The notes under the pieces are model-generated. The model worked only from the letters and a program-made list of their open reading frames with translations, did no database searches and was not told the origin of the DNA. From NCBI RefSeq assembly GCF_023343835.1, contig NC_064438.1, positions 13,931,077-13,995,076 of the forward strand: 64,000 nucleotides of DNA, in the 5' to 3' direction. The stretch is from Lagopus muta. Lineage: Eukaryota > Chordata > Aves > Galliformes > Phasianidae. Numbering within the stretch: the first letter of the stretch is position 1; each line of letters starts with the position of its first letter. The translations under genes were made by a program, and so were the position numbers. Shown piece by piece: positions 33,101 to 42,100 of the stretch.

Positions 33101-36100
33101 AGGAGAAATATGAAGGGAAATGGATTTTGATCAGAAAATTGTGGCAGGAGGGAGGGTGTGGGGGGTGAGATGCAGGTGAATGACACAGTCACGTTAAAAA
33201 TCAAGTACCGTCAGTTGGAACATGGATTAACTTGTATTAAAGTCAGGTCCATTAGGATCCGTAGGTTTGAACATGTGAGAAGGGCACAGACAACTCGCCC
33301 TTATTCATGTGCATAGAAATCCCAGCCCCTGCAGAAATCAGTGGGCTTGGAGGAGCTGGCACCTATTTCCCAAGTAGCCAGGATTTCACCAGCTATATGG
33401 GGCACACCAGTGCAGGGCAGTGAACAGAGCACATTCCTGCTCTCAAGCTCATGAGATCAAGTGTGGGCATCCAGAGGGGCTGGGAGGGGCATTTAAAGGT
33501 CAGTGGAGTTGGGCTGGTGGGCAGATGCTCTGGTGGGCATGTTGTATTACCATTCTGCTAATCATACACTCTGCCTTGCCAGATCTGGCATTTAATACAC
33601 ACTATAAAATTGCCCAATAGCAATCTTGCTATCCCCATGTTCTCAAAATGCATATTAACCCATGAAAATACCAATAGTGGTGTAGTGGTGGGGGGAAAAA
33701 AGCAAACAACCACATCTTTTTTTTTTTCTGAATGTGCTTTTTTTTTTTCTTTCTATAAATACATTGCAGCGAAAATGATGTTACTTGTTCTGACCCTTAG
33801 AAAACCAGGTGTGATGGTGTGTGACATGTGGCACAATCCCTTCCCCAACTGGTGTCCACACACACAGCCTGGTTAAGGAAATCAGAGCACAAGGGCAATA
33901 AAAGCAATACCCAATCCAATCCAGCACAGCATGCAACTGCTGGAGAGACAAATTGTTGCAACAGTGACAGCTAAAAACTGATGCATTCCATTAACAAGCA
34001 TGCGGTACAGGACCTTCTCTTCTCAAGCTATGGAAGGCATTGGTGTGGACAAAGCACTTAGCTCAGTGTAAAACACACATGCTCTTCACATCTTGTTCAG
34101 TCCCCCTGCCTTCCAGCCAGGAGAGCTATCAGGAGGCTGTCAGCTAGATCAGAACAGCAATTAGTACTTATTATAGCTTGTCCTACACTAGTGAAGCAGC
34201 TCCCAGCAGTCATGCAGAGGATATTTTCACATCCTCTCCTCTTCGGCCACCTCCGGAATTCCTGCACACGTTACTGCTCCAGACATAAACAGGAATTTGC
34301 AAATGATAGCACATAACTTCCACATGAGTGTGAGCTTTAGTGGGTGGAAGAGTCACAAAACAAAATGCAAAGAAATACAAGAGCGTTAGGAACAACACCC
34401 ATACAACAAACTTGCACCCATGCAAAATTAAGGGGAGGGGAAGTCTGAGAATATATTGCATGGAAATAGAATAATGTGGATAAAATAAAGAAGCACTACT
34501 GAAAATGAGAGTACTAGTAGAGATAGTGAGAAGGTAAAGCTGATTTAAGTGGCCTTATCAGATGTCATTTGTCTTAAACGCATATTACTGCAGTTCTGGA
34601 TAGAGCACAATCTCACACTGCCAAAGCTCACCCAGGATTACAGTAGAATTACAACCTGGAGCCAACAGCTTTTTGGTGGCATGAGGCTGCACTTACGATT
34701 GTCTGATGATAGCTTAGAAATTCCATTGCATCAATATGGAGAAAGCTATCTTTAACCATTCGTAAAGTTAAATAACACAGAAATCATTGCCAGTTGCTTT
34801 TTCATACAACAGGCATCAAAGCTGAGAAGTGGACATGAGGAAAGGCTGCCATGGGAACACCAGCCATGGGCACAGCCACAGGTTGGCCAGCACTTGGCCC
34901 AACTCAACATGAGGTCCAAAAATTTGTGCCTCCCAAAGAGGCACACGCAGCCTCAGAGCACAGGGAATCCAAACTGCACAACGGCTTTATGTTTCCCAGC
35001 ACCCTGACACTTTGCTTTCATGCAACAATTACTATACAGTATCATCAGAACATGAAGTGTCAAGACAAACATGATGGGAGAACAGCACTCAACTCAGCTG
35101 TAAGTTTAAATCTGCACTCCTATGTCTGTTTTCAGCTCCTGTTTCCCCTTAACATCTTGGGTCGTGTTGGCCACATCTGAACTCACTCTGTACAAGGGGA
35201 ATTTGGGAGTCATCTCATGTACCTTCCTCATGATGTGCTTTAGTGAGTGGTAGAGTCACAGAGCAGGATGCAAAGAAAGACAGAAGTGTTAGTAACTGCA
35301 AGACAGCCTTACACACACATAAAACAAAGGGAAAGGGATTTCTGAGGCAGTATTTTGGGAAAATAAATTAATACAGATGGAAAAATCACTACTGAAATTG
35401 AGGGTGCAGACAATCTGAGATATTGTGACCATAAACTTGATTTCAGTGGTCGTATCAGATGTCACTTGTCTTAAATACACATTACTGCATTTCTGGATAA
35501 AGCACACAGTCTCACACTGCCAAAGCTTGCTCAGGTTTACAGTGGAATTTCAAGCTGAAGCCTACAGCTTTTTGGTGGCATAAAGCTGCACTTAATACCA
35601 GGAGATGACTGCCTAGAAAATTTCATCTTTAATCATTTGCAAAACTGAATAACATAGAAATAATGGCCAGTTGTTTTATTACACAACAGATACCAAAGCT
35701 AAGGAATGGGTAAGTGGAAAGGCTGTCGTAGGAAAATGAGCCAGGCGCAGCTCAGTAGGAGGGCTGGTACTTGGCCCAATGTAACAGGATATTCAAGGTA
35801 CTGTGCCTCCCGGAGAGACTCACAGCCTCAGAGCAGAGGGTTTCCAAACTGCTCAAGGGTTTTAGTTTCCCAGCACCTTGACACTTTGTTATCATGCAAG
35901 GATTACTACAAAGTATCACCAGGATATTAAGGGTCAAGACCAAGCTTGAAGGGACGACAGAACCCAACACAGTTGAAGGCATAATCCTGCACCCCTATGT
36001 CTGTTTTCAGCTCCTGTTTCCCCTTAACATCTTGGGTCATCTTGGCCACATCTGAGCTTACTCTGCACAAGGGGAATCTGGGAGTCATCTCACGTACCTT

Positions 36101-39100: not shown

Positions 39101-42100
39101 TGCAAAGGAAGACAAGAACGTTAGGAACCACAAGACAACGTTGTACTTGCACAGAACAGGGGGGTGGGGGATAAAGAATAAACCTGATTTAACTGGCCAC
39201 ATCAGATCTTGTTTGTTTTAAATATGCATTACCTTCCCTATGGAAGGTGGGAAGTAGGTGAGTACTTCCCTTTAGGTGGGAAGTACCAGAGAACAGAATG
39301 CAAAGAAGCACTGAGGGAGGCACATTCATGCACAGACTGAATAATCTCTTGGGCCAGAGGGTAGAGTTTAATCCCGATAAGGGATTTGCTAAGGGCAAGG
39401 AGGAGAAGGAATGAGAAATTAGCTGCAGCAAGTGAGAGGATCAGACTACAGCAGGGGAGGTTTTGGAGGAAAGGTAGGAACCATAGGCAACACAGTGACT
39501 GTGTCCTGCTCCCCTTTTCCCACACTTCAATTCCTCTCAGTGCTAAGGTGATGATGGGAAGGGATGAGGAAGGCCAAGGCACATACTTTCTTCATGAGCC
39601 CCAGCAGCTGGGATAGGCTGAGAGCCAGAACAATGAGATGGAAAATAAGAGCAGATAGACTAAAGAGTATGTGAAAGCAATAGGGGATGTATAAAACATA
39701 CAGGGATGTGAAATAGAGAGGGGAAAAAAAAATGGAGACAGGTGACCAGAGTGTGCCTGGATACAAGAAATGTAAATCCTTCATGACCTGTGCTCTGCAA
39801 AAACCCTGTCAGCTGCTCAGAGCTAATCTGCCCCTGTTATAAACAGGTTTATGAGTTTTTCATACATGCCCATAGAACAAAGCTTTGCAAATGCAAAGGG
39901 AACCAACCCACCCTTTGGCTCCTCATCGGAGCACCAAGCCCCAGACAAATGAAGTACAAAGGGTGAGTTTCTGTTCCAGCCCCTTTCCTGGTCCTGCAGA
40001 CACCACACACCCTGCAGAGAGCCAGCTGAGTTATTTGCCAGTATCCTCACAGATGTAACTAATAACACCACAGAATGCAGGTGTTATTATTTATATTATA
40101 TATAATACTATATATTATAGTCTATAACTCATAATATATATGTCATACTATATATAATATTACATATTATACAATATGTACTGTGTAACATGTGGCTACA
40201 CGCATACCTTGCCACAGATAGATTTTGACTTTAAAATCCATCTGATCGTTATCTGCCAAGCTATGCAGGAGAAACCAGTTGATATGGGATATAGACCTTC
40301 AGAGATAGGCCTCAGCTGCTCTTTGGCTGGTGTTACCAACACCCAGGGCTGAAAACCAGCCTCAGAGCCTACTGCGGCCTGAAGGAGGGGATGGTGCCCA
40401 CATTTCCCATGCTATTCCCTCCCCAAAACCAGTGGAGATGTCGATGGATACACAACTTATGGGGGACCCATGGTGGGACCCCAAAACTTCCTCAGATGCC
40501 TTCCTAAACCAGTTGATCCTCATGTGGAAATGTAGAGGCTCAGGGGAAGTAAGTGTTTTCAGGTGAGGCATCCCTTGTCCCAGCATCGTTCTCTCGCCTG
40601 TTGTTTTCTTCTACACTGAGCCCTGCAAAGAGCAGAGCCGAGGTGTCCTTTTCCACATACCTTCTTCCTGGACCTCTTCTGTGGGTGGCAACATCATGCA
40701 GTGAAGAGAATGAAGAAGAAAATTAAAACAGAAATGACTTTTTTTTAAAACATCCTTGAGGTTTTCCAAGCACACAGGGTAAGAATACACAGTGATGAAA
40801 TTACAGAATGAGAGAGAAATAAAACCAATATCTTTATGGGCATCTTATGGGGTTCTAAATGTTACTGAAAAACGAGAATATGACTACAAATAAAAACCAC
40901 ATTAAAAAGTCACCCACTAAGTTATCCTTATTAGAGCTGGTTGATGTTTCCTAAAGCTCAGTTTTGATGCAATTTTAACCACAAATAAAATTTCTCCATT
41001 CATTTTTTTTTAAATCTATGTTTCTTGAACAGTTACAGATTTAGATTCAACATTCTTCAAATCTTGAACTGCTAAAGAAATTCATCACTGAATTTCAAGA
41101 AATGGATGCTAATTTCCCAGAGTCCTCCACCACCCTTTTTTTTAACCTAAGATTTATTTAAAGCAAATAAAATTTCTTTCCATATACGTATATAACTACA
41201 CACTTGTATATGTGTGTGCACATTTATGTATATATGCACTTTATGTATGTGCATCTATATATAAGAGACCCAGTTTCCTACCAGCTCAATAAGTGACATC
41301 AATAGCTGTCACTGCATTGATGTCTGTGGCTCAGGACCACATCCTGGCCACCAAGTGTGAACTGTTTGCTCTGTATTTCTTTGTACACATTCTTCCTCTG
41401 CACCAAGAGAGAAAGAAAGCAGAAGCCATGTCACATACCTGTTGCATGAGCTTCAGATGGCAAGCGTCATGGAACAAGAAGCCACAGCAAACAGGAAAAT
41501 GGAAACAGAAAACTGTTAGAAACTGGTATTCTAGTCAGGTAAGGCCTGGAGAATGAGTGGTTAGAAAGTGATGGGAAAAAGTTATATGGGTTGCTTTGGA
41601 AGGTCAAGCAAAACTGGGGAACAGTGCAAAGTTACACATCAGAGGGGACGGTCATGCAGATAAAAAGCAGGATTGTAGTCACCTGCCTTTTAATTTCAAT
41701 TGTTACAATATTGAAACTCAAAAGGAGGCAGTAAGGGAAGGAAGGAGAGAAGAAAGAAGTACTTCTCCTTTTAGGAAGGCTTGTCTGTAGGAATGACACC
41801 CTTTGCTCGCTCTTTGGGCGTTTGACAAGGTGCAAAGAAGGATGGAGTATGAGCAGCACTTACACCTCCCCAGCTCTGCCTCTCTGGGCAACAGCCACTG
41901 GAGACACCTCTTGCTGAAGACACCTGCACTTGTTGCTCTTGTGCCCTTGATCTCCTTATCTCCCTGGTAGGGATGCTGAGGGAAACACAGCTATGCCTTA
42001 GAGCAGAAACTATTCTGAGCAAGCTCCCTTCTGTTCCCATCACTGCTGATGGGAATTACTTAGTGGCAGCAACCTGAGGGAAACCAGCTGCTCTGCATAA

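Follow-up and report, generated by a model that had tools for sequence, protein, structure and literature searches.

A tandem array of 15-nt His/Glu exons, almost certainly the P-exon array of a galliform-type fast skeletal troponin T gene

Published P exons and the layout of the gene

Reviews describe an N-terminal His/Glu cluster in fast troponin T. It binds transition metals as well as calcium, and its zinc-bound form alters the binding of troponin T to tropomyosin. The repeated unit is the P-exon pentapeptide AHH[A/E]E, and the metals bound by the cluster are Cu/Ni/Zn/Co (PMC11016001). The P exons lie between TNNT3 exons 5 and 6 (PMC5062619) and, according to the reviews, they are spliced in adult pectoral/breast muscle after hatching and not in leg muscle. 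Seven P exons are given for Galliformes and Craciformes by reviews citing Miyazaki 1999 (PMC11016001, PMC5062619); one review words the number as "up to seven" and PMC11016001 gives four to seven repeats. A tandem P-exon array is thus already known and, by these citations, has been in print since 1999. For mammalian TNNT3, whose exons 4-8 are alternatively spliced, the abstract of PMC2447309 suggests exon shuffling.

The 64-kb stretch of DNA analysed here (the window) contains an array at 34-39 kb that is almost certainly the P-exon (exon x/Tx) array of galliform-type TNNT3, the gene for fast skeletal troponin T. TNNT3 exons flank the array on both sides and on the same (minus) strand, and a C-terminal stretch of 75 residues was identical at 72 of 75 positions to PDB chains 2w49 and 1ytz, which are fast skeletal troponin T. 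The array sits between exon 5 (EEVQEE) and the exon EVHQE, with the numbers 5 and 6 assigned by order within the window. The features, in gene order, are the following.

44697..44716, minus strand: TNNT3 coding start exon, MSDTEE(V)
43609..43622, minus strand: TNNT3 exon 3, (V)EHGE
42869..42886, minus strand: TNNT3 exon 4, EEYEEE
41439..41450, minus strand: w-type exon, AHAT; candidate older copy of the cassette
40661..40678, minus strand: exon 5, EEVQEE
39587..39607, minus strand: candidate in-frame exon of 21 nt (AAGAHEE), or else a dead cassette, just 5' of the array; proposed from sequence only
34317..39269, minus strand: whole tandem array from D0 to D7, made up of six units and the 200 nt between D0 and P1
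39255..39269, minus strand: D0, dead site resembling a P exon, at the upstream array end; acceptor-like sequence, no HHEE, no donor
39055..39069, minus strand: P1 exon, GHHEE; donor AAG/GTACGT
38249..38263, minus strand: P2 exon, GHHEE; 531-nt unit
37718..37732, minus strand: P3 exon, AHHDE
36918..36932, minus strand: P4 exon, AHHEE
36098..36112, minus strand: P5 exon, GHHDE
35223..35237, minus strand: P6 exon, AHHEE; donor GTACAT
34317..34334, minus strand: D7, dead exon of 18 nt, AHTHVE; acceptor kept, TTATGT instead of a donor
32932..32946, minus strand: exon EVHQE, in the place of exon 6; candidate older copy of the cassette
30977..30988, minus strand: exon APAP; candidate older copy of the cassette
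29831..29842, minus strand: exon VHEP; candidate older copy of the cassette, most similar to w
29437..29454, minus strand: exon EEAPEE
24426..24444, minus strand: exon EEKPKIK
23516..23561, minus strand: next TNNT3 exon, 15 residues

Further TNNT3 exons follow downstream of the last one listed, as far as about position 15122. A reading reconstructed from exons 2, 3, 4, w, 5, P1-P6, EVHQE, APAP, EEKPKIK and 9, leaving out VHEP, EEAPEE, y and the 39.6-kb candidate (acceptor score 1.6, donor score 6.1), gave MSDTEEVEHGEEEYEEEAHATEEVQEE followed by the six P repeats and further residues, and the frame was kept also without the P exons. The order of this chosen set is the layout of the avian peptide printed in PMC11016001, except for exon 4 (EEYEEE), which is absent from that peptide.

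Six minus-strand exons fit the pattern AAG/NN CAT CAT GAN GAA G/GTA (slashes at the exon ends), which encodes [A/G]HH[E/D]E. The 64-kb window held six matches to this pattern, and the maximum in any of 100 dinucleotide shuffles was zero. Exactly AHHEE is read by two of the six exons (P4 and P6). All six are 15 nt long, are in phase 1 at both ends and have both splice sites, and because of this length and phase any number of them can be included or skipped without a frameshift. The first-pass annotation had proposed one 15-nt His/Glu exon per ~0.8-0.9-kb unit and six usable exons; six intact exons with acceptor, donor and frame were found, in units of 531-903 nt. Its two dead sites, D7 and D0, are both real, although D7 proved to be an 18-nt exon reading AHTHVE and not an HHEE copy. 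The link that it drew to metal binding by troponin T of galliform breast muscle fits: the gene is TNNT3, and the reviews describe P exons encoding AHH[A/E]E.

The array resembles the avian P exons of the literature (Miyazaki et al., 1999; Jin & Samanez, 2001, as cited in the reviews) in gene, in position and in its tiny tandem exons. Like the Tx cluster (Jin & Smillie, 1994, as cited in PMC11016001), it has HH and acidic residues at a five-residue spacing; in this comparison, one of sequence alone, the repeats of the window differ in having G for A in three of six (P1, P2, P5) and D for E in two of six (P3, P5). Relative to the published pentapeptide AHH[A/E]E, the array contains GHHEE, GHHDE and AHHDE and lacks AHHAE. 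The seven published P exons correspond to seven sites in the window if D7 is counted, of which six are intact and one has a broken donor (TT for the donor GT), and seven working exons were not found in the window. Six intact exons are nonetheless compatible with an avian P-exon array because the reviews allow four to seven, or up to seven. We infer that D7 is the counterpart of the chicken peptide AHAHAE quoted in PMC11016001 and the seventh P exon of the published galliform count.

Likeness among the small N-terminal exons

The exons w, EVHQE, APAP and VHEP resemble earlier duplicates of a single microexon cassette, the proposed ancestor of which is a symmetric exon of 12-18 nt with about 100 nt of intron. 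This likeness is firm for VHEP and w, and it is weak for the P exons once the splice core is excluded. On a reading to which we give even odds, a large part of the hypervariable N terminus of fast troponin T in birds would derive from repeated duplication of that single cassette, the scattered exons (w, EVHxx, APAP and VHEP) coming first and the P array later, with its units exchanging sequence while the ~37-nt acceptor element stayed fixed. Convergence of splice signals, and not common descent, could also have made w, EVHQE, APAP and VHEP resemble the P cassette, an explanation that we consider rather unlikely.

Against convergence, VHEP and w are 76% identical over 98 ungapped nt and, with the core held fixed, scored 77, where the null reached at most 42, a pair chosen after the score matrix had been seen. 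Core-fixed scores for three further pairs, likewise chosen post hoc, were 50 against a null of 34 (VHEP-P1), 54 against 36 (VHEP-APAP) and 49 against 42 (VHEP-EVHQE), whereas P1-w and w-EVHQE were not above the null. The core-fixed test covered 20 pairs, chosen after the likeness had been seen by eye, with 300 shuffles each; the observed score was reached by none of the 300 in seven pairs, by one in three pairs, by six in one pair and by at least 52 in nine pairs. Models of the whole cassette built from each set ranked the opposite set among the best non-training matches in the window (both strands) and gave no match below E=1 at exons 2, 3, 4, 8, 9 and y, with chance matches in this search beginning at E 0.08-0.13.

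The models from which the splice core was removed favour convergence, with a weaker signal between the P and non-P cassettes. The upstream P model reached VHEP at E=0.014 and EVHQE at E=1.1, the upstream non-P model reached the P exons at E=0.07-2.9, and the downstream models recovered no exon of the opposite set. The downstream P model matched an unrelated sequence at 14668-14703 (plus strand) at E=0.008, which is better than the VHEP match. EEVQEE and EEAPEE are not counted as members of the cassette family because their model matches lean on a shared GAAGAAG/GTATGTG core; exon 5 (EEVQEE) compared with the 29.4-kb exon (EEAPEE) scored 40, core fixed, and the null averaged 40.2. The small N-terminal exons of the window are of one phase class, as are the mammalian TNNT3 exons 4-8 of PMC2447309. 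Unlike the exon shuffling suggested in that abstract, the intron flanks in the window suggest that one microexon cassette was duplicated to give several of the exons.

Acceptor flank and splice sites of the P exons

The 37 nt that precede the intact P exons (-37..-1) were variable in one of 37 columns, compared with 182 of 363 among the other gap-free columns within 260 nt either side of the P exons (Fisher P 2e-9, an optimistic value since the 37-nt boundary was picked after the alignment had been seen). Counted in fixed bins, two of 40 columns were variable at -40..-1 and three of 20 at +81..+100, one of several other quiet stretches; the P exon itself was variable at three of 15. Recent homogenisation would give an identical picture of constancy in the acceptor flank. 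No stray copies of the 37-nt element were found in viral and prokaryote contig collections, and Rfam and tRNA scans of the 64-kb window gave no matches.

It is improbable that the array is real but decayed, with some or all of the six P exons no longer spliced in the host bird. D7 and D0 are dead, and the P6 donor, GTACAT, has lost the +5 G and scored 5.3 in a simple weight matrix. The donors of P1-P5 are strong (9.1-9.5 by the same matrix), all six P exons keep the reading frame, and all six retain the 37-nt consensus of the acceptor flank at 36 or 37 positions, compared with 32 (five changes) in the dead D7. D0 differs at 25 positions in the flank comparison, which ran ungapped over an indel and is unfair as a distance.

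Tandem units and exchange between them

A direct-repeat search found a 300-nt stretch present as six direct copies at spacings of 875, 820, 800, 531 and 806 nt, and in the unit alignment all 15 pairs of units were 74.9-85.1% identical in ungapped columns. The P2 unit is only 531 nt long because it lacks an intron stretch downstream of the exon that is present in the other five units. These in-register repeats and the alignment bear out the earlier claim of tandem amplification of exon plus intron. The array escaped Tandem Repeats Finder, whose longest period is 500. Tandem repeats of such size are a general weak point of assemblies, but an artefact in which one true unit was written repeatedly is hardly credible, since 15-25% of ungapped columns differ between units in all 15 pairs, the indels differ too, the P exons themselves are not identical to each other, and several P exons are already known in chicken, according to the reviews.

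A conversion-like block is common to units P1, P4 and P6. The conversion test took in five of the six units, or ten pairs, P2 being excluded because it lacks the intron stretch. Three pairs beat every one of 2000 global shuffles and all three overlap in the P1/P4/P6 block; P3-P4 (18 sites) was matched by 100 of the 2000 shuffles and the remaining six pairs by at least 663. Quicker divergence of P3 and P5, or the order of duplication, could also produce such a block. Support in the unit tree and the cassette tree was mostly low, and neither is relied on here.

The sequence shows a unit of ~0.8-0.9 kb, consisting of one 15-nt exon and its intron, repeated head-to-tail: six copies have intact exons, the next has an exon with a broken donor, and upstream of them lies a truncated copy (D0). 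Unequal exchange presumably made the array, and conversion-like exchange would have moved sequence between the units. Selection would hold the acceptor-side element, which the splicing machinery may need to recognise so small an exon. What is added here to the known array is the quiet 37-nt flank, the conversion-like block of P1, P4 and P6, and the cassette likeness of the other N-terminal exons.

The array illustrates clearly how a protein repeat is made by copying of exon plus intron, so that splicing and copy number can both set the length of the repeat. If other exons of the N-terminal region are earlier duplicates of the cassette, a single gene would carry microexons that are live, weakened or dead in a shared sequence setting, and the sequence requirements of microexon splicing would be testable by comparison. 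Such a series of old and young, dead and live copies would, if the cassette reading is true, serve the study of how microexons are born and recognised.

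P exons and tandem units in TNNT3

The P exons of the fast skeletal troponin T gene, TNNT3, were located by the pattern NN CAT CAT GAN GAA G, preceded by AAG and followed by GTA. It occurred six times in the window, each time as a 15-nt minus-strand exon, and at most zero times per shuffle in 100 dinucleotide shuffles. In gene order, P1 to P6 encode GHHEE, GHHEE, AHHDE, AHHEE, GHHDE and AHHEE. Each lies in its own direct tandem copy (806, 531, 800, 820, 875 and 903 nt, measured between the starts of successive exons or exon-like sites), as the first-pass annotation had proposed in describing six usable-looking 15-nt exons, one per genomic unit. 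The shortest unit lacks a stretch present in the other five. Donor scores from a simple weight matrix were 9.1-9.5 for P1-P5 and 5.3 for P6. The units were only 74.9 to 85.1% identical (ungapped columns, all 15 pairs) and therefore are not a single unit written repeatedly by the assembler.

Two further P-like sites stand at the ends of the array:

34334-34317, minus: D7, downstream end; acceptor like those of P1-P6, 18-nt exon AHTHVE, TTATGT replacing the donor GTATGT
about 39269, minus: D0, upstream end; acceptor-like stretch only, 200 nt upstream of P1

The earlier description of both sites as dead stands, since D7 lacks a GT donor and D0 is only acceptor-like, with the amendment that D7 carries a hexapeptide exon. 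In the accessible text of PMC11016001, an avian breast peptide has six AHH[E/A]E repeats followed by AHAHAE and then EVHEP. D7 occupies the place of AHAHAE, and we therefore read it as a probable seventh P exon whose donor is broken.

A tblastn search with a chicken sequence as query placed TNNT3 exons between 23.5 kb and 15.1 kb; the 5' exons, running downward from 44.7 kb, were placed by short-peptide and splice-site searches and reading. The chosen exon set, which omits VHEP, EEAPEE and the two candidates listed below, reads MSDTEEVEHGEEEYEEEAHATEEVQEE followed by six P repeats and 31 further residues, and its frame is intact with or without the P exons. The PMC11016001 peptide, as far as that text gives it, has the same layout except that it lacks EEYEEE. 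A 75-residue C-terminal stretch was identical at 72 positions to the PDB chains 2w49 and 1ytz, both fast skeletal troponin T.

39607-39587, minus: candidate exon AAGAHEE, 21 nt, in-frame, directly upstream of the array
about 28255-28229, minus: candidate y/foetal exon ADEEGGYYD(G), then GTAGCT, read by eye

The AAGAHEE candidate ends in A and, if used, would make the opening residue of the P exon that follows Ser or Thr. Elsewhere in the window, a 211-codon open frame (13055-13690, minus) has a translation that we take to resemble a CR1-type retrotransposon tail.

Variation within and among the units

Among the six intact copies, only one of the 37 columns preceding the exon was variable. In the remaining gap-free alignment out to 260 nt on either side, 182 of 363 columns varied (Fisher P 2e-9); the 37-nt limit had been chosen after the alignment was seen. 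In fixed 20-nt bins, the two bins directly before the exon (-40..-1) had 1/20 variable columns each; another quiet full bin lay at +81..+100 (3/20). The exon itself varied in 3 of 15 columns, and D7 has five changes within the 37-nt stretch. The low variation fits selection on a splicing element; recent homogenisation of the units would look alike.

A run test on five units (P2 omitted) gave three significant pairs of ten. The longest shared runs of polymorphic sites, P1-P6 (58 sites), P1-P4 (41) and P4-P6 (40), exceeded all 2000 shuffles. These runs overlap within one block and the units are non-adjacent, which points to conversion-like exchange among P1, P4 and P6. The order in which the units duplicated, or more rapid change in P3 and P5, could alternatively have produced the block.

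Proposed related cassettes among other N-terminal exons

Other small N-terminal exons resemble one another in their intron flanks, and their likeness to the P exons is weaker. One such pair is:

41450-41439, minus: w-type exon AHAT, 76% identical to VHEP over 98 ungapped nt
29842-29831, minus: VHEP exon, 11.6 kb from w

With the splice core (the shared splice-site sequence around the exon) fixed and the flanks shuffled 300 times, VHEP outscored all the shuffles when paired with w (77; null maximum 42), P1 (50; 34), APAP (54; 36) and EVHQE (49; 42). P1-w and w-EVHQE were not above this null. When a P1-P6 model was run on both strands, its top matches outside the training set, after D7, were VHEP (E 1e-8) and EVHQE (3e-6), and a model of four non-P exons recovered all six P exons (E 6e-12 to 2e-9). 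Exons 2, 3, 4, 8, 9 and y had no match below E=1 with whole-cassette models, which span microexon and intron flanks. Without the splice core, the models tied P and non-P exons together less strongly: the P upstream model found VHEP at E 0.014 and the non-P upstream model found P exons at E 0.07 to 2.9. Downstream models without the core found no exon of the opposite set; one gave a chance match elsewhere (E 0.008) and the other exon 4 (E 0.82).

These likenesses argue firmly for common descent of VHEP and w, which APAP and EVHQE likely share. Whether the P array derived from the same cassette is about an even call. Exon shuffling has been suggested as an origin of the small human TNNT3 exons in the accessible part of PMC2447309. 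At 42815-42763 (minus), gacacttgccactaaag resembles the cassette acceptor and was matched by two of three cassette models (E 5.5e-4, 42814-42763; 0.013, 42815-42768); it is possibly a further ghost copy.

The array among described P exons

In the text available from PMC5062619, exons 5 and 6 flank seven P exons, w lies between exons 4 and 5, and y between 7 and 8. Passages of PMC7581897 give up to seven P exons in the gene, inclusion starting after hatching in pectoral and not leg muscle, and an emu fast TnT without P-exon structure; literature cited for P exons in the reviews, as far as seen in these passages, includes Miyazaki et al. (1999) and Jin & Samanez (2001). Given these descriptions, the array is already known in kind and the window is a further instance, with six intact exons and residue variants of its own.
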